This document shows, one piece after another, positions 9,937-25,099 of a DNA stretch of 34,622 nucleotides. The notes beneath the pieces were generated by a model, which did not search any database, was not told the DNA's origin, and worked only from the letters and a program-made list of their open reading frames with translations. Source of the stretch: Candidatus Peregrinibacteria bacterium (GTDB lineage Bacteria; Patescibacteriota; Gracilibacteria; UBA1369; UBA12473); assembly GCA_018659585.1 (NCBI GenBank), contig JABJMC010000026.1:1-34622 (forward strand). The letters run 5' to 3'. The position numbers and the translations under genes are program-made. Every line of letters starts with the position of its first letter. The first letter of the stretch is position 1.

Positions 9937-11595
9937 CTAAAACACCTCCTTCAAGTAGCAATCTTCACAATAAACCGGTTCTGGTCTTTCTGGCGCATAA
10001 GAAGATTTTATAGAGGCAGCACATTTCCCACACGTCCGATCCCATAATTTTCGTGGATTACGTAATTTCATACGCTCGCCATGTCGTTCCATAGGCGCAA
10101 TTCGCGGCAAAGCAATTCCAAACCGTTTATAAAACTTAAGTTCCTGCGGAATAATTTTATAAAAATCAGAACTCTCGGCACATTGCAAAACTTTATCACA
10201 AACAGATTCATCAGCGTCCGCCACCGCCTCTGGCAATGTAACCTCTGGCCCTTGATAAGCCGCACTATCATCTTTATCTTTCCATTTATAACCACGTGTC
10301 AAAGCCTCCTCCTTAGTTAAAGGAAAATACTCCTGCGCCACAGTCTCGTTATAGCCATAAGGAGAAATAGACACTGGAAAAAACTCACCCCATTCACCAG
10401 TCGACTTCATGTGTTCGATAATTTTTGGAACTAATTCCTCGTATTGCTCCTTGGTGTATTGCTTGTTGAGGATGCAGTATTCTTTCTTACGCAAACCTAC
10501 ACACCCAAATAAATCCTTATTATCAATACAAAGGTCTGTATATGTTAAATTATCCGCTCCCTCCCAAATATTCATACAAAATCGACAATTCCTCAAATTA
10601 TAACAAGAGCTACACATTTCATAACAAAGCTGACATTTATACCCAATAAAATCCCAATCATAAGCATCCGTAGTCTGGTGTAAATGAGTTGCAAATTTAA
10701 CATCCCGCAAACCCTCACAATTAAAACTTTCATGGGTATCTTTACACCCCTCCAAATAATCTCCCGTCGAATCTTCACATCGCATATTTTCTAAATTTTT
10801 GCGTGGAAATTTTTGAATATGTTCTTCGAAATATTTTTTAGCTTTTCCCATACCAGCTTGCGTGTCTAATCCCATATTAGCCTTCATTTTTTCATACTCT
10901 TCTTTGCTAACTTTTTTATTAAAAATCACATACTGCTGATTCTGCAAATTTGCAGAAAACATACAATCATGACAACTTTGCATATTATAACAAAAATAAA
11001 GCCCAGATGACCCTTTAATTTTGTATGAATAAAAACACGTTTCACAATTAATTGCATGAAAAACATTCAAACAAAATCGTGAATCATAAGTAAAATCCGC
11101 ATCTAAACAACTATAATTACGATCTGAAAACCGCATGTAATAACACTTTTCATTATAATCCGCAGTATAAATCAAATAACTATCTTTATTATGCGCTGAA
11201 TAACTAATAAAAGTACTATTTTCATTATGCAACCCCACCAAAGCCATACGTGGGACTTTTAACTGCAACTCTTCAAACTGCTCAAAAAAAGGACGAGAAA
11301 AATCAAACTCCTGTCCATACTCCAGGGGATCCCAATCATTTTTCCACCACTCATCTCTATCATAAATAGTATACGGTGAATCTGGGGAATACATCGAAAT
11401 CATAGATTTACCGGTTTTAGCACAAGTCCCACTATAAAGACTGGTCTCATTTCGGATTGCCAAACGACGTCGACGACGCTCCTCCGGACACAAAGTTGGC
11501 TCTGGCACCTCCACTTTTTTATAAAAAGCTTGATCCTCGTCTGTAATAACAAATCCCTTTCCCGAAACCGCACATTGCTTGGTAATTGAAGCCAT
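9937..11595 (-). CDS. Cys-rich protein with zinc ribbons and beta-helix-like core
   Basis: 552 aa, no signal peptide. The N-terminus carries a zinc-binding-like module (C8, C36, then C58 in SGTCAKTGK). The middle contains two stretches densely populated by Cys, Asn and aromatic residues at regular spacing (about 151-225 and 320-375). Each ends in an NKK/NKQ turn and a KEEYEK/KEQYEE helix, suggesting an internal duplication and possibly a right-handed beta-helix. The C-terminus has two CxxC pairs (CGKC and CEDC), another zinc ribbon. I associate this architecture with an uncharacterised family common in Patescibacteria, sometimes carrying misleading CoA-transferase names, but I cannot confirm that here. 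The ATG at 11595 is preceded by a plausible promoter. Function unknown. Confidence 0.85.
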   Translation of the reverse strand: MASITKQCAVSGKGFVITDEDQAFYKKVEVPEPTLCPEERRRRRLAIRNETSLYSGTCAKTGKSMISMYSPDSPYTIYDRDEWWKNDWDPLEYGQEFDFSRPFFEQFEELQLKVPRMALVGLHNENSTFISYSAHNKDSYLIYTADYNEKCYYMRFSDRNYSCLDADFTYDSRFCLNVFHAINCETCFYSYKIKGSSGLYFCYNMQSCHDCMFSANLQNQQYVIFNKKVSKEEYEKMKANMGLDTQAGMGKAKKYFEEHIQKFPRKNLENMRCEDSTGDYLEGCKDTHESFNCEGLRDVKFATHLHQTTDAYDWDFIGYKCQLCYEMCSSCYNLRNCRFCMNIWEGADNLTYTDLCIDNKDLFGCVGLRKKEYCILNKQYTKEQYEELVPKIIEHMKSTGEWGEFFPVSISPYGYNETVAQEYFPLTKEEALTRGYKWKDKDDSAAYQGPEVTLPEAVADADESVCDKVLQCAESSDFYKIIPQELKFYKRFGIALPRIAPMERHGERMKLRNPRKLWDRTCGKCAASIKSSYAPERPEPVYCEDCYLKEVF

Positions 11596-11812: not shown

Positions 11813-12586
11813 ATGACTAATCAAAACCTCACAAATAATTTGCAACAATTTGGCCTTTCCAAAGACGAAGCCAAAGTCTTTATTGCCACGCTCGAATTGG
11901 GCGGTGGTTACGCCTCTACAATTGCTAAAAAAGCTCGTGTCGCGCGCGTAAATTGCTACCATTTACTAGAAAAACTCACCAAAAAAAGCTTGATCGTGCC
12001 AGTTCAACGAGGCAAGGTACAATTCTTTATGCCCGAGCCACCGCAAGTCTTTTTAAACCAACAAGAGCAACGCTTTAATCGTGCTAAAGAACTCCTCCCT
12101 GAACTTCTCTCCATCACCAACACCCATCCTTTTAAACCAAAAATTCGCGCCTTTGAAGGCTTGGACGGCATCAAGGAAATTTTTAACCAAACTCTAAAAG
12201 CTGAAAGCGAAATCTTGGGCTACACTAATCTCGAAAAACTCCAAAAACTCCTTCCCGACTATCTCCCGGAATACGTCAAAAAATCCCTTGAAAACAAAGT
12301 CAAAAAACGCCTCATCTCCCCAAAAACTGATGCTGCCACCACTCACACTAAAAAGTACTACCCAAAAAACTACCCACGCGAACTCCTCGAAATCTTTTTC
12401 GTAAAACCAAAACAATTTCCTTTTGAAAATCACATCTCTATTTACGATAACTCGGTCGCCATCATTTCCTTAAATCCCGAAGAACAAATTGGCGTGCTCA
12501 TCGAAAGCACCTCTCATGCCAAAACCCAACGCACCATATTTAATCTTGCGTGGCTAGGAGCAACTAGTTTTGTGGCGCAGAATTAA
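11813..12586 (+). CDS. TrmB-like transcriptional regulator
   Basis: 257 aa. Residues about 10-75 form a winged helix-turn-helix of the TrmB/sugar-specific type (FGLSKDEAKVFIATLE, then ASTIAKKARVARVNCYHLLEKL). A coiled linker follows (about 80-100). The C-terminal domain (about 108-257) contains VKPKQFPFE at 197-205, identical in the second TrmB-like protein of this window. TrmB proteins bind DNA as dimers and often sense small molecules through the C-terminal domain; no effector can be read here. This is one of the few genes with a good Shine-Dalgarno element (GGAG at 11802-11805, 7 bases before ATG). It is divergent from the Cys-rich gene, a plausible target. Its 3' end overlaps the convergent gene by 23 bases. 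Confidence 0.85.
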   Translation: MTNQNLTNNLQQFGLSKDEAKVFIATLELGGGYASTIAKKARVARVNCYHLLEKLTKKSLIVPVQRGKVQFFMPEPPQVFLNQQEQRFNRAKELLPELLSITNTHPFKPKIRAFEGLDGIKEIFNQTLKAESEILGYTNLEKLQKLLPDYLPEYVKKSLENKVKKRLISPKTDAATTHTKKYYPKNYPRELLEIFFVKPKQFPFENHISIYDNSVAIISLNPEEQIGVLIESTSHAKTQRTIFNLAWLGATSFVAQN

Positions 12587-13400
12587 CTCGATTTTCTACT
12601 AAATCTTGCCACCTTCCTACAACATATAAAGTTGGTGTTTGATCTGCAAAAACCCAATAACGATCACCGCGCAAACCATCTTCATCAGGATCTCCTAAAT
12701 GCCCCAAATCAAACTCTGGTTCTTTATCATCTACTGGATCTAAACCTAACACTACATAAGGCTTAACATTTTGAACATCATCAAACTCCGTTGCATTCTC
12801 AGGCCAATAACAAACTCCTCCACTCCCCTCAAGTTCTGCCAAAACCTCTTTCATTCTCTCCCCAGCATCCCTAGTAAAAATATTTACTTCTTGATCAGCT
12901 TGTCCTTTAAAAGCACCCTCTAACCTATCCCTAATCCCATCTTTCTGCTCCCGAAAATCTATTGCCAAATCTTCTACAGTTCCACGCAATGCATACACTA
13001 CTGCCTCTAAGCTCATCCCCTGCGTCCTCTGATCATTAGCATACAAAGCACTCACACATTGCTTTTGTAAAACAATTAGATTACCCGCTGCAAATTGAAT
13101 TCGATCATCCCAAAGTTCATTCCCTTTCCATTCCCCATTCATTGGTCTTCCAAAATCATAATCTAACTCTTCTTCTAATAAACCCACTGCATGCTTAAAT
13201 ATTTCCTCCATCAAACCACGATAATCTGCTTCTTCCGCTAACTCTCGACATCTACTTCCTAATACAGCCGCTGTGCTATCTTCCACTAATAACTCAAACA
13301 AAACTGTATTTAATACTCTTTCTACTGGGCGTTGTTCCATGGCCCGCACACGCTTCGACGTTGAACGAATTCCGTGTTGTTCTGATTTTGGGGTAGTCAT
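12564..13400 (-). CDS. Uncharacterised protein, third of three tandem relatives
   Basis: 278 aa, cytoplasmic by appearance (no signal peptide or membrane segment). The N-terminal two thirds look helical (RPVERVLNTVLFELLVEDS at about 24-42). The C-terminal third looks beta-rich and contains DGLRGDRYWVF with GDR at 245-247. It shares the MTTP start and an [RQ]R..ER...LV.DS stretch with the next gene upstream, and the D(G/A)xxGDR motif with both relatives. I recognise no database family. It is the last gene of a minus-strand trio 9-12 bases apart, likely one transcript. Its 3' end overlaps the convergent TrmB-like gene. Position below the cyclase-like gene suggests a shared process, but this is inference. 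Confidence 0.75.
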   Translation of the reverse strand: MTTPKSEQHGIRSTSKRVRAMEQRPVERVLNTVLFELLVEDSTAAVLGSRCRELAEEADYRGLMEEIFKHAVGLLEEELDYDFGRPMNGEWKGNELWDDRIQFAAGNLIVLQKQCVSALYANDQRTQGMSLEAVVYALRGTVEDLAIDFREQKDGIRDRLEGAFKGQADQEVNIFTRDAGERMKEVLAELEGSGGVCYWPENATEFDDVQNVKPYVVLGLDPVDDKEPEFDLGHLGDPDEDGLRGDRYWVFADQTPTLYVVGRWQDLVENRVNSAPQN

Positions 13401-13409
13401 AATAAAAAA

Positions 13410-14471
13410 TTAAGATTGAACTTGAACTGCATATTTAGTTGCCGCCGCCGGATCATCAGTTGGATGCCAAAAACCAGCATGAGTCATATTTTTAGAGGCA
13501 GTCCACACTTCCGATTGCTGCCTATCCCCTTGTCTAGCATCCCGATCAAACATGAGCACATCGAATTTCCCTTCTCCACTAAAAGGAAGCTCTTCCACTA
13601 CAGGAAACTTAGAAAAAACTAATGGGTCAAAAGATGCATTAAGATCCCAACTAAAACTTATTCCCTCCTCCAACGATCCCTCAGTCATTTGTTGCAATAC
13701 TGACAAAGCTTGCTCATCAAATCCAAACATCCTATTTGGGCCATCAACTTGTTGAATTCCTTGTGGCCCGCCACTATAACGCGGCCCATAAGTTGCCGCT
13801 CTAATAAGTTTTACTTTAATTCCGATTTCTTGACGTTGTCGCTCTAACCATAGCTGTGGGCAAGCATTAATTAACAATTCTCTTAATTCTTCTGGAGACC
13901 ATTCTACTTTAGATTGATCCTGTTGCGCCTGCTCCGAAAACTCTTTACGTTCAAAAACTCCTTGCAAACGCACTGTCAAAGGAGCCAATTCATATGGGGT
14001 AATTTCAAATCTATCCTCGACAGCCTTCACCGCACTCTCTAAATCTATATCTCCGTTAAATTCAAGGGTTGATTCCCTTAATAAACTCATTTGCATACGA
14101 TAATTCCGCACAATATCCACGGCATTACAAAGCGACTCCCAAAATCGGGCAACTTCCATGGTTTCCTCTCCTCCCTCTTCTACAGAGTTATACAAAAAAC
14201 CCACAAAATTAGGCACACCATGGTTATTTGGGGGGATGCGACCAATTCCACGTTGCTCTGCAAAAACTTTTTGCAACCCATTAATAACCGCATCAATTGT
14301 AATATCTTGATAATCCGAATCTACTAAGTTATTTATCACCTCAAAAACTGCTCGCTCCAAAGTACGACGTTCTCGTAACCCATCAATATCTGTCCGATGA
14401 ATACCGCCATTCAATAACTCAAAATCCTCTATTGTGGGACTAAAAATTTCTGGGTTATCTGGGGTGGTCAT
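13410..14471 (-). CDS. Uncharacterised protein, second of three tandem relatives
   Basis: 353 aa, soluble. The N-terminal helical region has RRTLERAVFEVINNLVDS (about 35-52), resembling the following gene. A CPQLWLERQRQEIG motif at 204-217 is matched by CPSLVKERENQEAG in the preceding gene. Near the C-terminus, DARQGDR (GDR at 315-317) corresponds to the DGLxGDR of the other two. These shared, ordered motifs suggest diverged paralogues. The ATG at 14471 has no Shine-Dalgarno sequence; spacing is 12 bases from the upstream stop and 9 to the downstream start. No enzyme motif recognised. Confidence 0.75.
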   Translation of the reverse strand: MTTPDNPEIFSPTIEDFELLNGGIHRTDIDGLRERRTLERAVFEVINNLVDSDYQDITIDAVINGLQKVFAEQRGIGRIPPNNHGVPNFVGFLYNSVEEGGEETMEVARFWESLCNAVDIVRNYRMQMSLLRESTLEFNGDIDLESAVKAVEDRFEITPYELAPLTVRLQGVFERKEFSEQAQQDQSKVEWSPEELRELLINACPQLWLERQRQEIGIKVKLIRAATYGPRYSGGPQGIQQVDGPNRMFGFDEQALSVLQQMTEGSLEEGISFSWDLNASFDPLVFSKFPVVEELPFSGEGKFDVLMFDRDARQGDRQQSEVWTASKNMTHAGFWHPTDDPAAATKYAVQVQS

Positions 14472-14483
14472 AACAATAATATT

Positions 14484-15377
14484 TTAACCAAATAAAACTA
14501 ATCGGTCACCTACCAAACCATCATTACCATCAACATTGCCAGGCCTCTTCCCTTCAACCCGATGAATCAAAATATGAGTACAAGTTTCCTTGTTCTCATA
14601 ACCAATAAACATAACTGGTATTTCCTTCTTACTCCCTCCTTTTATAGATACTGCTTTCGCATCCGGTTTATCGCATTCTTCACCCTGGGCTTCCCGCACT
14701 GGAATACGCACGACCAAAATTCCGTTCTCAGCGTCACTTTCCCTATATCTCATATACTTATCACTGAAATCCCAACCTAAACGTGTCAGCCCGGTATTCT
14801 TCAAACGTGGGGCACCATCAATACTTACCAATTCTGACTGCCCCTGTGGCAAACGCTTTAATCGTTCGGCTAATCCTGCCTCTTGATTCTCTCGCTCCTT
14901 TACCAAACTTGGACACTTAGTTTCCAAGGCTCTAATTTGCTTTTTAAACCAATTATTTATAATTGCTAATTGCTCTTCATCATCAGAAGCCTCCTCCAAA
15001 GCCTCGTCTAACTTTCCTTCATCAAGATCTTCCACATGCTCCATAAATACTCTCTCAATTTCACGCATTAATTCATCCAATGGCTCCCAATCATAAAGAG
15101 CATCTAACGCATCGTCATCATCAGAGGCTACTCTCATACCAACAATTCCTTCCAACGACTCAGCAAAACGATCTCGAAGCTCCCTAAATTCACCTTGAAA
15201 ACGATAACCATCAAAACTAAAATCACTCAAATCCTTTCCCTTAAATTTAGCTCCAACAACAACTTTATCTAAATATGCTAAAAACTCCCTCGCCAAGGAG
15301 CGCTCCATTACACTAGCAATTAAGGTATCTTCTCTGACGCGTACGCCTCGATCAGAGACATCTGGGCCATTCTTCAT
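14484..15377 (-). CDS. Uncharacterised protein, first of three tandem relatives
   Basis: 297 aa, acidic, soluble. A helical N-terminal region contains an Asp/Glu-rich stretch (about 85-135, including SDDDDALDALYDWE and SDDEEQ). CPSLVKERENQEAG lies at 155-168 and a beta-rich C-terminal part ends in DGLVGDRLVLFG (GDR at 290-292), the very C-terminus. Shared motifs with the two downstream genes indicate a common family that I cannot name. The start ATG at 15377 is preceded by C-rich sequence, not by a Shine-Dalgarno element. A plausible promoter lies about 27 bases upstream, so the trio can be transcribed independently of the large cyclase-like gene. Confidence 0.75.
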   Translation of the reverse strand: MKNGPDVSDRGVRVREDTLIASVMERSLAREFLAYLDKVVVGAKFKGKDLSDFSFDGYRFQGEFRELRDRFAESLEGIVGMRVASDDDDALDALYDWEPLDELMREIERVFMEHVEDLDEGKLDEALEEASDDEEQLAIINNWFKKQIRALETKCPSLVKERENQEAGLAERLKRLPQGQSELVSIDGAPRLKNTGLTRLGWDFSDKYMRYRESDAENGILVVRIPVREAQGEECDKPDAKAVSIKGGSKKEIPVMFIGYENKETCTHILIHRVEGKRPGNVDGNDGLVGDRLVLFG

Positions 15378-15462: not shown

Positions 15463-18400
15463 TTAATGAGCCCCCAAAAAATTTGTTAAACGCGGAATAA
15501 GACTAGAACATTCAAGCCATGCTCTCGGGTGTTTTTCTCTAAAAATTTGCAATTCATCCCATTGTTTTTTTAATCTATGCAGAATTGGAGCCGGAGATTC
15601 CCCTAATCTTTCTAAACAAACATACTGGTCCATTAACCCAAACGCCCAAGTTAATTGTGATTTCAACAACATCCTGGCTACACTTTCTTGATCTCGCAAC
15701 GGCGCAGCCAATGCTTTCATGTCATCCCATATCCGCTCCATACGCCCAAGTTCATAATAAGCCTGTTCATAGCGCCCTTCCTCCATCAACTTACCACCTC
15801 TAATTTTAGGTACATCAATTAAATAACCATACCCCTTTAATCCAGCATCCCTAAAATGATTTTCTTTCGCTCTCTTAATAATTTTACGAGAAACCCTTTC
15901 TCCCTCGGCTAGACTAATTGGTTCTGCCTTAGGAGCCATAAAAGCGCGTGCCAAAAACAAGGCTAATTGCATGTTAGCTTCCTTTTGATGGCTACTCTCC
16001 ACATCTTCTTGGGAATCCAAAAACTCCGTCACTTTTCTAATATAAACTTGCACATTTCCTAATTCTTGCGATTCACCTAACTCCAACAACCGATATCCTT
16101 CAGCCTGCAACCTAAACCTTTTAACATCAGAGTCAAAAGGCTCGATACCCACTGGATCCAATGAACCCAAGCCAACAATTGCCTTATCAATATATGACAA
16201 TTTATTTTTTTCCTCGGGAGAATCAGCTCGACGATAAGCTAATTTAGCATCATACAAAGCCAGTACCCCAGTTATAAAAGGGAATTTTCTAAACTTAAAC
16301 CCCCTATCAAAATGCATTTTCAAATCAGCCACCGCCTGTCCATGTGCCTCTAAATCACTATTTGATCTATACATTGCCTCGGTTTGCAAACCTAACAACC
16401 GAGCCACATCTGCAAATAAATCTTTTTTCATTTTGGCAGGAATAAACCCTACTATTTTTAAAGCTAATTCCAATTCTTGTTCCACGCTCTCTCCCAAAAT
16501 AATTTTCGTCTCTATTAAATAATTAAAAAGCTGTAATAATTCAGAAAAATCAATTAATTCAAATCCTTTAAGAGCTTCTTCATCTTCAATCTCTAAAATC
16601 TGCTGACCAATATCCATAACTTCAAACAAGTTTTGCGCCTGAAAAGCTTCTTTTAATTGCGAAAACGATGCCTGCAAAACTGGCCTTGTCCAACCAATTC
16701 CCATATTTCCACACGTTCTTAAATATTTTTCAAATGGAATTTGATCTTCCGAAACCGCTCGACGTAAATTTCTTTCCACCACATCTGCATAACGCCTCTC
16801 TACTCGTAATTCCTGAATCTGACGTCCAGTAGTTACAAAATACGATTCCCTAAAAGCAACTTCACCATCTCTAAAAATACCAACCTGCTGCAATTCAAGT
16901 AAAAGAGGTTCAAAATCTTGAATTGGCGGGCTAGCGGCTAAACGAAGTTCTTCTTCTGAAAACTCTCCCATTGCTAAAGCAATACCAAGCAAAGTCCGCG
17001 AAGCCATTCTTTTTAACTGATCTGAATAATGACTCACTATATTTTCTAACTGAGACACCTTTCTATCAAGATCTAATCTATCCCAAACAAACTCTGTCGA
17101 ACCAACCATTACAACCCCTTCCCGCAACCAATCTTTTATCAAGACCTCTAGCACCATAGGATTATAAGAACCCATATCACTAACCAATTGAACTAAAGCA
17201 TGTGCCACCTCAGAGTACCCAATCTCTTGAATTGGGACTTCTAAATAAAAAGCAACTATCTTAAGAGCCTCTGCCAAAGGAACATTTTCAAAATTAACTG
17301 ATTCTGGAGCTGCTTCACAGTCAACTCCTATCACGATCACCTCTGAATCAAACAAAACATCCTGAGAAACCCCATCCATCCCTGCCCAATGCGGACAAGC
17401 CACCCCAAAATTTTCACCAAAAAAACTTAATAAATTAGCCAGCTCGGGCTTAGCATAATCAAAATGATTCAATAAAAATATTTCTTCCCCGCCAACAAGT
17501 TCCCCAAAAAGCATTTTCCAAATCTCTACTTGTCCAGCAGGGGCACCCGTTTTTTCAAGCCAATCAGAAAACTCTTCAATATCAGCAAAAATCGAACTAA
17601 AAACCTGCCTTAAACCAGAATAATAGCTATGATCATGATGCTCAGACAACACTACTATTTGCATCCCATGCTCAGATTGTAATTGTTGAGCCGCCGCTTG
17701 CAAAACTGACACCTGACCCGCGCCAAATTCACCAGTTAAATTCCACTGGCGAACAGAATTTACATCAGCTCCACTTACAAGTCCTACTAATTCTTCCACT
17801 TTATCTTCACGCACATAGGAATCTATTTCTTCAATTTCAAACCCCAACCCTACCAACACGGTCTGCAAGCCATAAGTTTTCAATTCTATTTCTTCCGATT
17901 TCTCCTCCACTATTAAAATTCCTCTTTGTTTAAATAATTCATAAGTAGTCTGATCCATTCGGATTCCAGGCACTCCCAGGCAAGTCGCCAAACGATGTGA
18001 CCCATTTACCGCATCCGAAACCAATTCTTGAACCCCACTTACATCCTTTTCTCCCATATTAGAAACATGTATAGCTCCCTGCTTAAGACCAATTTGAGAG
18101 GTAGGATAAAAACCTAAAAGCTCATTCGCACAACGAGCAGACCGCTCTTCTTTATTAATTTGACTTGAACCTTGTGCTCCAAAAATTAAAATTCCACTTT
18201 TTTTACCTCCATTTAAAGTAAAAAACTTAACCTTCGCATTATATTTTTGGGCTAGCTGCATCAGTTGCTTTTCCCATTTAAAAATCTCTTGTGGATACTC
18301 ATCAGGATTGTCACTTTCGATTGGAGCTTGCGCATACAAACTAATAGCGCTTCGTTCCACTGTTTCTTTTGATTGCAAGGCTTCAAATGACATCGGACTC

Positions 18401-19509
18401 GCCGTTAAAGCCATTTGTCGTCGCACTCCATCCAAAATAACAGCCGGATCATTTTTGATCTCATCAGTATCCGCCCCCATAAAAAACTGTATTTGAGAAT
18501 CATCTGGAAGCGACCTCTCGTCTAAATAATCATCTACTTCCAAATAATGAATGTCACCTTTTTCATCAAAAAAAATTATTATCGAATTATCTCCAACATT
18601 AATCCCGTCTTTACTTAATCCTTGCACTGCTTCAGCCCGATCAAAAGCCTCTCCCAAAATTAACAATTTTCCACTTGGGGTAACAATCTCCATAAATCGA
18701 CCCTCTCCAATCGTAATATGACAAGGAACTTTTAATCCACAAGCCACATTCGCCATAAAACCCAAATGATTTTTCCGCTCATCTTCTAAAGACTCCACCT
18801 GCCTAACCGGAACCAAAGCATCACCAGCAATTTGAATTAAACGCTCACCATCAGCCCTTTCTAAAGCATCAAAAGTCGGCTGAAATAAACCCTCAGACAA
18901 ACTACGTGAAGAAGCTGATGCCCCTCGCAAAATTGTATCTTCGGTAAAACCCATCGCATCAACTACATCCACAAACCCATAACGCTCTTCTACCCCTACA
19001 AAAGGTTTACCCTTATACAAATGATTATTTGCTCTTTCTAACAAACAAACAATTCCCGGAATACGCGGAATAAAACGTGATTCAAACAACAAAAGCAACT
19101 CTCGAATTTCTGGCCATTCCGAACTTTGCAAAAGATTTTCCTCTGCTTCACCATCTAAAAAAGGTAGCCTTAAACGAATCAGCGCTCGATCTAAATCATC
19201 ATTAACTTCCAGCATCTTTCTTTTAACGCGTTTTAACTCTCTTACTTCTTCTTCAGTTTCGGCCATATTAGTCAAAAACTGATCCGGCCTTTCCAGATAA
19301 ACAAGCCAATCCTCATAATTATAAGGCACATCAGGAATAGTTTCGGAAACTGCGGTTATTTGACGAGTAGACAATTCTTCCAAAAGTTCCCGAAGCTCCC
19401 TTGAAACTGACTGGCCCATTTGTCCAACGAGAACATCTGTATATTCTAAAGCTTCAACATCCACCCTTTTTGATTTTAAAATAAGGAGATCATTATAAAC
19501 TTTGCTCAC
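15463..19509 (-). CDS. Soluble-adenylyl-cyclase-like multidomain protein
   Basis: 1348 aa from a GTG start. By eye the domain order matches class III cyclases of the soluble type (human ADCY10 and bacterial relatives). Cyclase homology domain 1 is at about 176-300: VDVVDAMGFTE with D184, then QIAGDALVPV with D230, the two metal-binding aspartates. Domain 2 is at about 384-525: NAKVKFF with K426 as candidate base-contacting lysine, and SDAVNGSHRLA with N502 and R506 at the transition-state positions. A STAND-type NTPase follows at about 586-800. Its P-loop reads GEFGAGQV (K replaced by Q599, S/T by V600), its Walker B reads FLLNHFDYAKPEL, and SYNPMVLEVL corresponds to the usual GNPFFLEEL. A winged-helix-like part (to about 920) and helical TPR-like repeats follow to the end. 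Predicted product is cAMP or another cyclic nucleotide; activity is unproven. The assignment rests on remembered family patterns, not on a profile search. Confidence 0.7.
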   Translation of the reverse strand: MSKVYNDLLILKSKRVDVEALEYTDVLVGQMGQSVSRELRELLEELSTRQITAVSETIPDVPYNYEDWLVYLERPDQFLTNMAETEEEVRELKRVKRKMLEVNDDLDRALIRLRLPFLDGEAEENLLQSSEWPEIRELLLLFESRFIPRIPGIVCLLERANNHLYKGKPFVGVEERYGFVDVVDAMGFTEDTILRGASASSRSLSEGLFQPTFDALERADGERLIQIAGDALVPVRQVESLEDERKNHLGFMANVACGLKVPCHITIGEGRFMEIVTPSGKLLILGEAFDRAEAVQGLSKDGINVGDNSIIIFFDEKGDIHYLEVDDYLDERSLPDDSQIQFFMGADTDEIKNDPAVILDGVRRQMALTASPMSFEALQSKETVERSAISLYAQAPIESDNPDEYPQEIFKWEKQLMQLAQKYNAKVKFFTLNGGKKSGILIFGAQGSSQINKEERSARCANELLGFYPTSQIGLKQGAIHVSNMGEKDVSGVQELVSDAVNGSHRLATCLGVPGIRMDQTTYELFKQRGILIVEEKSEEIELKTYGLQTVLVGLGFEIEEIDSYVREDKVEELVGLVSGADVNSVRQWNLTGEFGAGQVSVLQAAAQQLQSEHGMQIVVLSEHHDHSYYSGLRQVFSSIFADIEEFSDWLEKTGAPAGQVEIWKMLFGELVGGEEIFLLNHFDYAKPELANLLSFFGENFGVACPHWAGMDGVSQDVLFDSEVIVIGVDCEAAPESVNFENVPLAEALKIVAFYLEVPIQEIGYSEVAHALVQLVSDMGSYNPMVLEVLIKDWLREGVVMVGSTEFVWDRLDLDRKVSQLENIVSHYSDQLKRMASRTLLGIALAMGEFSEEELRLAASPPIQDFEPLLLELQQVGIFRDGEVAFRESYFVTTGRQIQELRVERRYADVVERNLRRAVSEDQIPFEKYLRTCGNMGIGWTRPVLQASFSQLKEAFQAQNLFEVMDIGQQILEIEDEEALKGFELIDFSELLQLFNYLIETKIILGESVEQELELALKIVGFIPAKMKKDLFADVARLLGLQTEAMYRSNSDLEAHGQAVADLKMHFDRGFKFRKFPFITGVLALYDAKLAYRRADSPEEKNKLSYIDKAIVGLGSLDPVGIEPFDSDVKRFRLQAEGYRLLELGESQELGNVQVYIRKVTEFLDSQEDVESSHQKEANMQLALFLARAFMAPKAEPISLAEGERVSRKIIKRAKENHFRDAGLKGYGYLIDVPKIRGGKLMEEGRYEQAYYELGRMERIWDDMKALAAPLRDQESVARMLLKSQLTWAFGLMDQYVCLERLGESPAPILHRLKKQWDELQIFREKHPRAWLECSSLIPRLTNFLGAH

Positions 19510-22514: not shown

Positions 22515-22988
22515 ATGCTCACTGAAAACGATCATAAAGTCCTCAAACGACTTGTAAAAATCGCTCCAAATTCAACTTGTATCCGCGCTAGCGTGGCTTC
22601 AATTCTTGCTCGCAACGGAGAAATCTTAATTGAATCCCACAATAACACTCTTCCTAAGTTCGACTGCAACAAAATCGGCTGTATTCGCGACATTCGCAAC
22701 GTCCCATCAGGTTCCAATCGCGAAATTTGTTATGGGCTCTGCGCCGAACAATTCCTTGTTGCCCAAGCCGCCAAAGACCAAATTTCAACCAAAGACACCA
22801 CTATTTATGTCACTACTCACCCTTGCCGAATTTGTGAATGCCTAATTGTTTCTGCTGGGATAAAACGGGTCGTCTATGTCCATGGTTATCCCGATGTCCT
22901 TCCTCAATACGATCCTTTCAAAAAACACGGCGTTGAACTAATTCACGCCAAAGAATATGACACGCTCCCTAAACCTTTTGACGTTTAG
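22515..22988 (+). CDS. dCMP deaminase-like zinc deaminase
   Basis: 157 aa of the cytidine/deoxycytidylate deaminase superfamily. The zinc site is CAEQ (C76, E78 as proton shuttle) plus PCRIC (C104, C107). The stretch with CNKIGCIRDI and PSGSNREIC before it resembles dCMP deaminases, which usually have HAE; here the histidine is cysteine, as in cytidine deaminases. It would supply dUMP or uridine nucleotides, compatible with the neighbouring nucleotide-salvage genes. The stop overlaps the convergent gene by 4 bases. Exact substrate uncertain (dCMP more likely than cytidine). Confidence 0.85.
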   Translation: MLTENDHKVLKRLVKIAPNSTCIRASVASILARNGEILIESHNNTLPKFDCNKIGCIRDIRNVPSGSNREICYGLCAEQFLVAQAAKDQISTKDTTIYVTTHPCRICECLIVSAGIKRVVYVHGYPDVLPQYDPFKKHGVELIHAKEYDTLPKPFDV

Positions 22989-25099
22989 TACGTAATCTCG
23001 TAAACCTTAGTATCACCAACTACATAAACACGCCCAGACTCTTTATCAGCGTAAAGCTTTTTAAGCGATTCCTCGGTCTCCAATACATACTGACTAGCAT
23101 AAGCTAAATTCCCTGTCCGCGAATCTTTATTAAAAATCAAAACTCTATTTCCGACTGCATCTAACATAAACACTTGGAACATTTCAAATTCCGTATAAAT
23201 TTCAATTGCCCCCGAAAGGTCAGTCGTTGGCACATTTTTAATCGAATAATCCACATATTCTCCACTTAATAATTTAACAATGTCTCCATCGTCTCTCAAA
23301 ATATAAACAAACCCATCAATCGCCAAAGACTTCGTATTAATAAGATCCGTCCCATCTGTTACATAAGCATCTGCGCCACTATAACCATTTCGTTGTTGAT
23401 AATAGCGCCAAATTTGTCCTTGGCTAGCATCAAGTAAATAAATCCGACTATTATAGATTTCTAAATCTACAGCTGAATGCCAAGATCCATCATCGGTATC
23501 AACAAATGAAAACTGATCATCTTTAAACTCAATAATTCTATTTGCCTTAGTTAAGAAAAGAACTGACTCATCTTCTTCAAAATAAGCCGCATCTACTACT
23601 ACTTCATCCGCATCAATCGTTACCGGCTCTTGAATATCACCCAAAACAACTTCGAACAATTGGTTATAACTATACACATAATAACGATCACCAAATGGCA
23701 CAATTCCCAAAATATTTACGGTTGGATAAGCTATTGCGAAATCTGCAAAAACCGTCGGAGTCTCTAGTCTCGTCACATTATCCAAATAATCACGCTGACT
23801 TTCGATCTCTCCTAAATATTCACTAGCCTTACCACGCAAATAACCAGAATTCAAAACTTCCAAAGCTAATTCCTCAGCCTCATCCAAAAGGGCCGTGGCT
23901 GATTCTTTGTCATAACTACCTTGTGTTTGAGCGGTATTAATATTGAGTTCTACGGTTTCCAGTTTTGTCTCTAAATCTTCCATGAGTTGCTGTTTTTCTC
24001 CCTGATGTCGCACCATATAAATCCCTACCAACAACATCACCACCACCGCAACTAGCGCCAACAAAATTTTGTCACGTTTAAGTTCTTTCCATTCCTGGAT
24101 TAAATCTGTCATATCAGCCAAAGCTTGTTTTTTGCTGCTTTTTTTGGGGACTTCGGCTTGAACCTCTGCCTCAACTTGAACTTCTTCAGTCCCTTCTATT
24201 ATTTTCTCCGCCACTTCTCTTTTTACTTCTTCAACTTCCTCAATTTCTTCTACTTCTTCAATTTCTTCAACCTCTTCAACCTCTTCAATTCCCTCTATTT
24301 TCTCGATTTTCTCCCCTTTTTCAGGAATCAATTTACCTAAATGCAATTTTAGCGATGCTCCTAATTTAGGCAATTTCTTAGCCCAATTAGAACCCTGTCC
24401 GCTCACATCTTGCGCATCTCCACCATCAATTACTTCCTCCACCCCTTCAATGTGAACACCCAAAACACTCATTCGATCCATTAAATCAATCGAAACCGCA
24501 TCATTAATAGCGTTGAGAGCCACTTTTAAAGAAAGTTCTTCGGAAATTAACTTCCCTAAATCAGATTTTGTAATGTATCGAACTAGTCGAGAAGAACAAA
24601 ACAACAAATAATCACCAGCCGTTAAATCCCCACTCGAGATATTAGAAAAAAGTTCATCTTTATTCTTAGGATCTGATAATCCTTCGGAAACAGTACTTAC
24701 AAATCGACGACGAACTAAATACGCCTCAGATTCACCATGTTGCGACAAATAAAGGGAATCCCCCCAAACAGCCGCCACTACTACGTGCATATTAGGAACA
24801 AACTTTATTCCTAATTCATCCTCCTTTTTACGAATTTCAGTATTTACTTCTTTCAAAGTGTCTTCAAACCGGTTCGAAGCATCACGCTCCAAACCATGGA
24901 AAAAATAATTCTTGATAATTTCGAAAATTGACTCACCAATTTCATTCCCTGGAACTTCAGTTGAATCAATGCGAAGATTTAAGAAAATCTGTGAACGAGG
25001 ACCACCCATTCCGTCTTCCCATTCATAAAAATAGTTTTTGGAGAAACCAAGTGACTCCTTCCCGATCATCAAGAATTCATGTGCGATACGAAAAGCCAT
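22985..25099 (-). CDS. Membrane protein with PP2C-like domain and propeller-like C-terminus
   Basis: 704 aa. The N-terminal ~220 residues have the strand order of PP2C/SpoIIE-type phosphatases: HVVVAAVWGDSLYLSQHGESEAYLVRR (about 105-131), then LTAGDYLLFCSSRL (159-172). The usual Asp-Gly metal motifs are not evident: DGMGG at 29-33 is out of place, and S169-S170 replaces the SDG pair. It may be a pseudophosphatase that binds without catalysis. Next come a Glu/Val/Ile low-complexity segment (263-293), one transmembrane helix (about 345-363), a coiled coil (about 365-435), and a C-terminal region of repeated beta strands resembling a beta-propeller (about 440-704) outside the membrane. The layout suggests a transmembrane scaffold or sensor. 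It is divergent from rpmH, where many bacteria carry dnaA. Confidence 0.75.
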   Translation of the reverse strand: MAFRIAHEFLMIGKESLGFSKNYFYEWEDGMGGPRSQIFLNLRIDSTEVPGNEIGESIFEIIKNYFFHGLERDASNRFEDTLKEVNTEIRKKEDELGIKFVPNMHVVVAAVWGDSLYLSQHGESEAYLVRRRFVSTVSEGLSDPKNKDELFSNISSGDLTAGDYLLFCSSRLVRYITKSDLGKLISEELSLKVALNAINDAVSIDLMDRMSVLGVHIEGVEEVIDGGDAQDVSGQGSNWAKKLPKLGASLKLHLGKLIPEKGEKIEKIEGIEEVEEVEEIEEVEEIEEVEEVKREVAEKIIEGTEEVQVEAEVQAEVPKKSSKKQALADMTDLIQEWKELKRDKILLALVAVVVMLLVGIYMVRHQGEKQQLMEDLETKLETVELNINTAQTQGSYDKESATALLDEAEELALEVLNSGYLRGKASEYLGEIESQRDYLDNVTRLETPTVFADFAIAYPTVNILGIVPFGDRYYVYSYNQLFEVVLGDIQEPVTIDADEVVVDAAYFEEDESVLFLTKANRIIEFKDDQFSFVDTDDGSWHSAVDLEIYNSRIYLLDASQGQIWRYYQQRNGYSGADAYVTDGTDLINTKSLAIDGFVYILRDDGDIVKLLSGEYVDYSIKNVPTTDLSGAIEIYTEFEMFQVFMLDAVGNRVLIFNKDSRTGNLAYASQYVLETEESLKKLYADKESGRVYVVGDTKVYEITY
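24221..24313 (-). repeat. Low-complexity repeat coding for Glu-Val/Ile triplets
   Basis: A 9-nt period (TTCTTC/CCTCTTCAA-type units on the plus strand) encodes about ten copies of a three-residue unit, EE followed by V or I, between the PP2C-like domain and the membrane helix. It likely forms an extended charged helix and is prone to copy-number change. Confidence 0.8.

Follow-up and report, generated by a model that had tools for sequence, protein, structure and literature searches.

Human sperm contain a soluble enzyme for cyclic-nucleotide synthesis, sAC (ADCY10). At full length it comprises two cyclase homology domains, C1 and C2, together with a P-loop region predicted to be of the STAND type (PMC12802110). 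Roles have been assigned to Asp47 and Asp99, the metal-binding pair in C1, to Asn412 and Arg416 in C2, and to Lys334, Lys95 and Arg176 (PMC12867704), while the role of Thr405 and a switch between Arg176 and Asp99 have been described separately (PMC12250328). Two further kinds of protein are relevant to the locus considered here. Chains that join Guanylate_cyc to AAA_16 occur in Pseudomonadota, an example being WP_060611346.1 of Paraburkholderia caribensis, which as a query retrieves 362 plasmid records, some of them without covering both domains. It resembles our protein in that a class III cyclase precedes AAA_16 within one long chain, but it has a single cyclase domain placed after a SAM domain, and its Pfam scores are strong. 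The CHASE2-Guanylate_cyc proteins found in the genome of P0001 and in its order (L006 and its relatives) share the class III catalytic fold, but carry a membrane-type sensor and one cyclase domain with all motifs, and are easily recognised.

We describe here a long protein, P0001, from Candidatus Peregrinibacteria, encoded in a window of 34,622 nucleotides; the window is the whole stretch analysed and makes up an entire contig (C8) of a genome of 1.41 Mb in 49 contigs that is 96.7% complete. We will argue from sequence and structural models that P0001 is probably a catalytically active class III nucleotidyl cyclase, a pseudoheterodimer laid out like sAC, in which base recognition is altered and the NTPase module has degenerated. 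The kind is known already; new are the lineage of the protein, how far it has diverged, its loss of the residues for base and bicarbonate although the catalytic ones are kept, and the decay of its NTPase. ADCY10-like tandem cyclases would then extend into Patescibacteria in a form that is invisible to family databases.

The open reading frame (15463-19509) lies on the minus strand, starts with GTG at 19509 and encodes 1348 amino acids; the preliminary description had given no strand, and the plus strand across this span is crowded with stops. On comparative grounds it is a real gene, since four homologs of 1291-1453 aa align over most of its length with 21-27% identity. The exact start is uncertain and may lie further in, because a sigma-70-like promoter match (11/12, at 19519-19492 on the minus strand) overlaps the GTG. 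Promoter-like sites of such score do not occur more often in the region than in shuffled sequence. Residues 1-54 are not conserved among the homologs.

The preliminary description proposed the domain order of ADCY10, in which two class III cyclase domains are followed by a P-loop domain of STAND type and then by a tail of helical repeats. This layout is confirmed by the family profile, by the AF2 model with Foldseek, and by AAA_16 in the homologs (Table 1). P0001 thus has the C1-C2-STAND order and the long C-terminal region of sAC in one soluble chain, and also its metal-binding Asp pair in C1 and Asn-Arg pair in C2. It differs from sAC in being only about 15% identical, in lacking the base-recognition and bicarbonate residues, in having degenerate Walker A and B motifs, and in a conserved helical region of about 110 residues that runs directly into C1. 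This region is specific to the family, and to our knowledge nothing like it has been described for sAC.

Table 1. Features of P0001 and of the genes downstream of it (window coordinates).
Feature	Position	Strand	Basis or remark
Residues 55-167, conserved N-terminal helical region	19009..19347	-	14/113 columns invariant; helices in AF2 model
Residues 168-315, cyclase homology domain C1, both metal-site Asp	18565..19008	-	model, Foldseek, family profile, residue alignment
D184 codon, metal Asp 1 (sAC Asp47 slot)	18958..18960	-	invariant in 5/5 proteins
D230 codon, metal Asp 2 (sAC Asp99 slot), G-D motif	18820..18822	-	invariant in 5/5 proteins
Residues 378-555, cyclase homology domain C2, transition-state pair	17845..18378	-	hhalign, model, Foldseek, family profile
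N502 codon (sAC Asn412 slot)	18004..18006	-	sole invariant Asn of C1+C2
R506 codon (sAC Arg416 slot)	17992..17994	-	invariant in 5/5 proteins
Residues 575-760, STAND/AAA_16-like P-loop domain, degenerate	17230..17787	-	AAA_16 matches, clearer in homologs
Residues 593-599, Walker A loop G-E-F-G-A-G-Q, Gln for Lys	17713..17733	-	residue alignment
Residues 761-1348, all-helical, TPR-like superhelix	15466..17229	-	AF2 model; weak PDB matches
297-aa orphan protein	14484..15377	-	downstream of P0001, 85-base gap
353-aa orphan protein	13410..14471	-	12-base gap
278-aa orphan protein	12564..13400	-	9-base gap

The Pfam family PF00211 (Guanylate_cyc) has no match in P0001, and the homolog in genome G001 reaches 18.5 bits against a cut-off of 21.9; this threshold marks a limit of detection and not a feature of the biology. 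A search of P0001 with NCBIfam and a phmmer search of P0001 alone against the PDB are likewise without match. The fold is detected by a family profile, built on the region of residues 55-565 of the five members and searched against PDB sequences. All seven matches with E < 0.01 are class III cyclases, six of them matched by two stretches, with the first half of the profile on C1 and the second on C2, and the best is a Chlamydomonas soluble guanylyl cyclase (E 3.9e-7). Aligned by hhalign with 25 canonical cyclases gathered from the same order, C2 has a probability of 89% (E 2.3e-6), compared with 0.3-2.6% for reversed controls. C1 alone reaches 1.4%, which is not significant, yet both Asp motifs align in register.

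The AF2 model of residues 55-565, based on an alignment of five sequences, has a pLDDT of 77.9 and a pTM of 0.78. A comparison with ADCY10 had been recommended, and in Foldseek human sAC indeed takes the top 24 PDB matches of this model, with E down to 7.6e-15 and alignments of about 490 columns that cover both cyclase domains at once. Other mammalian cyclases follow (AC9, E 1e-12), and single-domain cyclases also rank below sAC; the Foldseek probability is 1.00, and every one of the 50 listed matches is a class III cyclase or a cyclase-like protein. The TM-scores to sAC are moderate, 0.51-0.62. Both the profile and the model predict that residues 55-565 adopt the class III cyclase fold.

The sAC slots were counted on a short stretch of the human sequence, whose numbering fits the published FDKG loop at 338-341. 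The preliminary description was right that D184, D230, N502 and R506 are kept, and the two metal-binding Asp and the transition-state Asn and Arg are found in all five proteins in spite of their divergence. Over the 388 columns of C1 and C2 the only invariant residues of these types are Asp 184, 230 and 499, Asn 502, and Arg 456, 506 and 517. All four catalytic residues are among them, for which the composition-matched chance is 1.3e-4. In an active enzyme, C1 and C2 would pair within the one soluble chain to give a single catalytic site, C1 providing D184 and D230 for metal binding and C2 providing N502 and R506 to handle triphosphate and transition state, with the other, mirror-image site of the pair being dead.

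The base-recognition residues behave differently (strings of five residues are given with P0001 first and G001 last). The Lys334 slot is F429 in P0001 and reads F/Y/H/H/Y across the family, i.e. aromatic or His and never Lys, while the Thr405 slot reads E/gap/gap/gap/D, with Asp in G001; the placement of both slots depends on an alignment with loop gaps. The combination expected of an adenylyl cyclase, Lys in the first slot with Thr or Asp in the second, is not found. K426, put forward earlier as a key residue of C2, does not hold that place: it varies as K/T/K/K/T, one column before the invariant V427, and the adenine-lysine slot is F429. K437, kept in 4/5 members, could conceivably replace the base-recognition lysine. 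Since both slots are without the known residues in 5/5 proteins, the use of ATP or GTP is not readable from the sequence.

We now consider the remainder of the chain. AAA_16 scores 14.5 bits in P0001 (E 0.05) and gives E 4e-6 in G001 and 1.2e-4 in G022, all three below the Pfam cut-off. The Walker A pattern GxxxxGK[ST] is absent, the Lys slot reading Q/Q/K/gap/V with the lone Lys followed by His, and the acidic pair of Walker B is present as 'ED' only in G001 (ACEDIAHIDSAS), P0001 having ACPHWAGMDGVS. Because most members have lost the Walker A Lys and the acids of Walker B, the P-loop domain of the family is read as a degenerate STAND module. The AF2 model of the C-terminal region is all-helical (pLDDT 74.7, pTM 0.45), and TPR proteins such as LGN are among the PDB entries that fit it best, with E > 1e-3. 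The degenerate P-loop and the TPR-like tail would together form a regulatory scaffold, in which protein binding is likelier than ATP hydrolysis and the tail may sense proteins.

Several results count against an active cyclase, namely the hhalign value of C1, the moderate TM-scores, the five-sequence basis of the model, the Gln that P0001 alone has at the lysine of KxxGD, and the base slots without known residues. The loss of the base-specifying residues in 5/5 proteins would also fit a tandem fold that serves as a sensor or scaffold by binding a nucleotide, with catalysis gone. So would the decay already in progress in the attached NTPase, where most members lack the Walker lysine and the acids of Walker B, as well as the Foldseek match to a Pseudomonas 'class III adenylyl cyclase-like ATP-binding protein' (6yii, E 2e-8) and the canonical cyclase already in the genome. 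However, none of the four catalytic residues has changed in any member, although the NTPase motifs drift, and binding alone needs neither N502 nor R506. We consider the loss of catalysis unlikely for this protein, and an active cyclase probable.

The product itself may be unusual. Because the base-recognition lysine is aromatic or His throughout the family, P0001 might make something other than cAMP or cGMP, e.g. cCMP or cUMP, and be a second channel beside the CHASE2 cyclase, but we regard this as distinctly doubtful. The same domain order, and sAC as the top structural match, could be taken to indicate an adenylyl cyclase of the sAC/class IIIb type that is truly regulated by bicarbonate. Against this, the Arg176 slot reads A/T/S/L/L (A294 in P0001), with Arg absent from 5/5 proteins, the Lys95 slot (the lysine of KxxGD) is Q226 in P0001, the sole member with Gln where the other four have Lys, the Lys334 slot is substituted and the Thr405 slot is unconserved; the Lys95 and Arg176 pair of the bicarbonate site is missing, and such an enzyme is very improbable here. 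With the Lys334, Thr405 and Arg176 slots lost, the terms 'adenylyl' and 'bicarbonate-regulated' are unsupported, and from the original assignment as an ADCY10-type cyclase the architecture and a plausible catalytic site stand, but not 'adenylyl'.

STAND domains with helical repeats are common in conflict and defence proteins. A protein of that type, with the cyclase pair as an effector making an alarm nucleotide, would agree with the patchy distribution (5/89 genomes of the order) and the three orphan genes directly downstream, but it is scarcely credible given that PADLOC gives no match to P0001, its locus has no effector partner in common with the other four loci, and the NTPase motifs are decayed.

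The three orphans have no Pfam assignment above cut-off. The 297-aa protein is a possible operon partner of P0001. By blastp the orphans have no counterparts in the other four cyclase loci examined, so they are not partners of the family. The loci of G022, G010 and G039 have neighbours in common; beyond the cyclase, only G022 shares a neighbour with the window, an FtsK fragment close to the end of its contig, and no gene neighbourhood conserved with the window was found at the other four loci. Elsewhere in the window, a protein of 704 aa (22985-25099, minus strand) without Pfam match contains repeats rich in E and V (EEVEEIEEVEE) and what looks like a single membrane span.

The five genomes with full homologs, that of P0001 included, belong to families f1 and f10, and profile searches add none from 353 genomes of the class or from 380 sampled across the phylum, where the weak extra matches cover short stretches only. 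One open reading frame read among the P-loop matches (L070) is a Clp-type AAA protein and not a homolog. Another weak match (L067, 1336-3093) is not a full homolog either, but a different diverged cyclase-like protein of 585 aa. It belongs to another lineage of the phylum, has no Pfam match and carries a motif like that of C1 (IKSAGDELLFVSE); it is another cyclase candidate overlooked by libraries. Two more diverged cyclase proteins occur in the order (L060, 1718-4960, 1080 aa; L061, 1677-4148, 823 aa), with Guanylate_cyc matches of E 8e-8 and 0.016 that are stretched longer than usual, and with N-terminal regions that lack a functional assignment.

P0001 alone matches nothing in public genome contigs, and the alignment of the family matches only the three homologs already known, in Candidatus Peregrinibacteria RIFOXYA2_FULL_41_18, GW2011_GWF2_43_17 and CG2_30_44_17. 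These records, from the same order, bear out the early impression of a Patescibacteria-type genome. A tblastn search of plasmids with P0001 or the G001 homolog gives no match, and in the part of the literature covered we found no papers on cyclic-nucleotide cyclases in Peregrinibacteria.

Turning to the genome as a whole, where our statements rest on family searches, we find one canonical CHASE2-Guanylate_cyc protein (L006, contig C37; Guanylate_cyc E 6e-26). The search for cNMP-binding proteins that had been advised yields two (L007 and L008, contigs C11 and C26; E ~1e-22 each), both with intact-looking phosphate-binding cassettes, FGE...PR[AT]A. No obvious receptor had been seen in the window, but outside it the genome has receptor-type proteins and a second cyclase. 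No HTH was found by Pfam in the cNMP-binding proteins examined, which is consistent with the reported absence of two-domain CRP/FNR regulators from the CPR clade (PMC12531629).

Surprise at cyclic nucleotides in such a small genome was also unwarranted, because the order is rich in both families: Guanylate_cyc is present in 50/88 genomes and cNMP_binding in 68/88, and they co-occur (Fisher p 2e-5, a value that ignores relatedness and completeness). From these counts, signalling by cyclic nucleotides looks routine in this Peregrinibacteria order and not exceptional. G010, which is rated 100% complete, has no Guanylate_cyc even at E 10 and keeps two cNMP-binding proteins together with the sAC-like protein. 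As an argument this co-occurrence is weak, because 21/38 genomes without a Guanylate_cyc match still carry cNMP-binding proteins, and G010 has a CYTH protein that might be a class IV cyclase.

A cyclic nucleotide made by P0001 would act on the cell's own cNMP-binding proteins, one of which lies beside a PilT-like ATPase. The gene of this protein of about 300 aa (L007) directly follows that of the ATPase (G000:C11; L063, 6329-8314), and the pair is present in 5/5 genomes with the sAC-like protein (also G001, G010, G022 and G039). Its recurrence suggests that a cyclic nucleotide may control pilus retraction, and such control in small-genome bacteria is a testable idea. As a separate observation, the window encodes a Cys-rich protein of 552 aa (9937-11595, minus strand), and related open reading frames at G000:C11 (L063, 3093-5595) sit close to the PilT/cNMP-binding pair.
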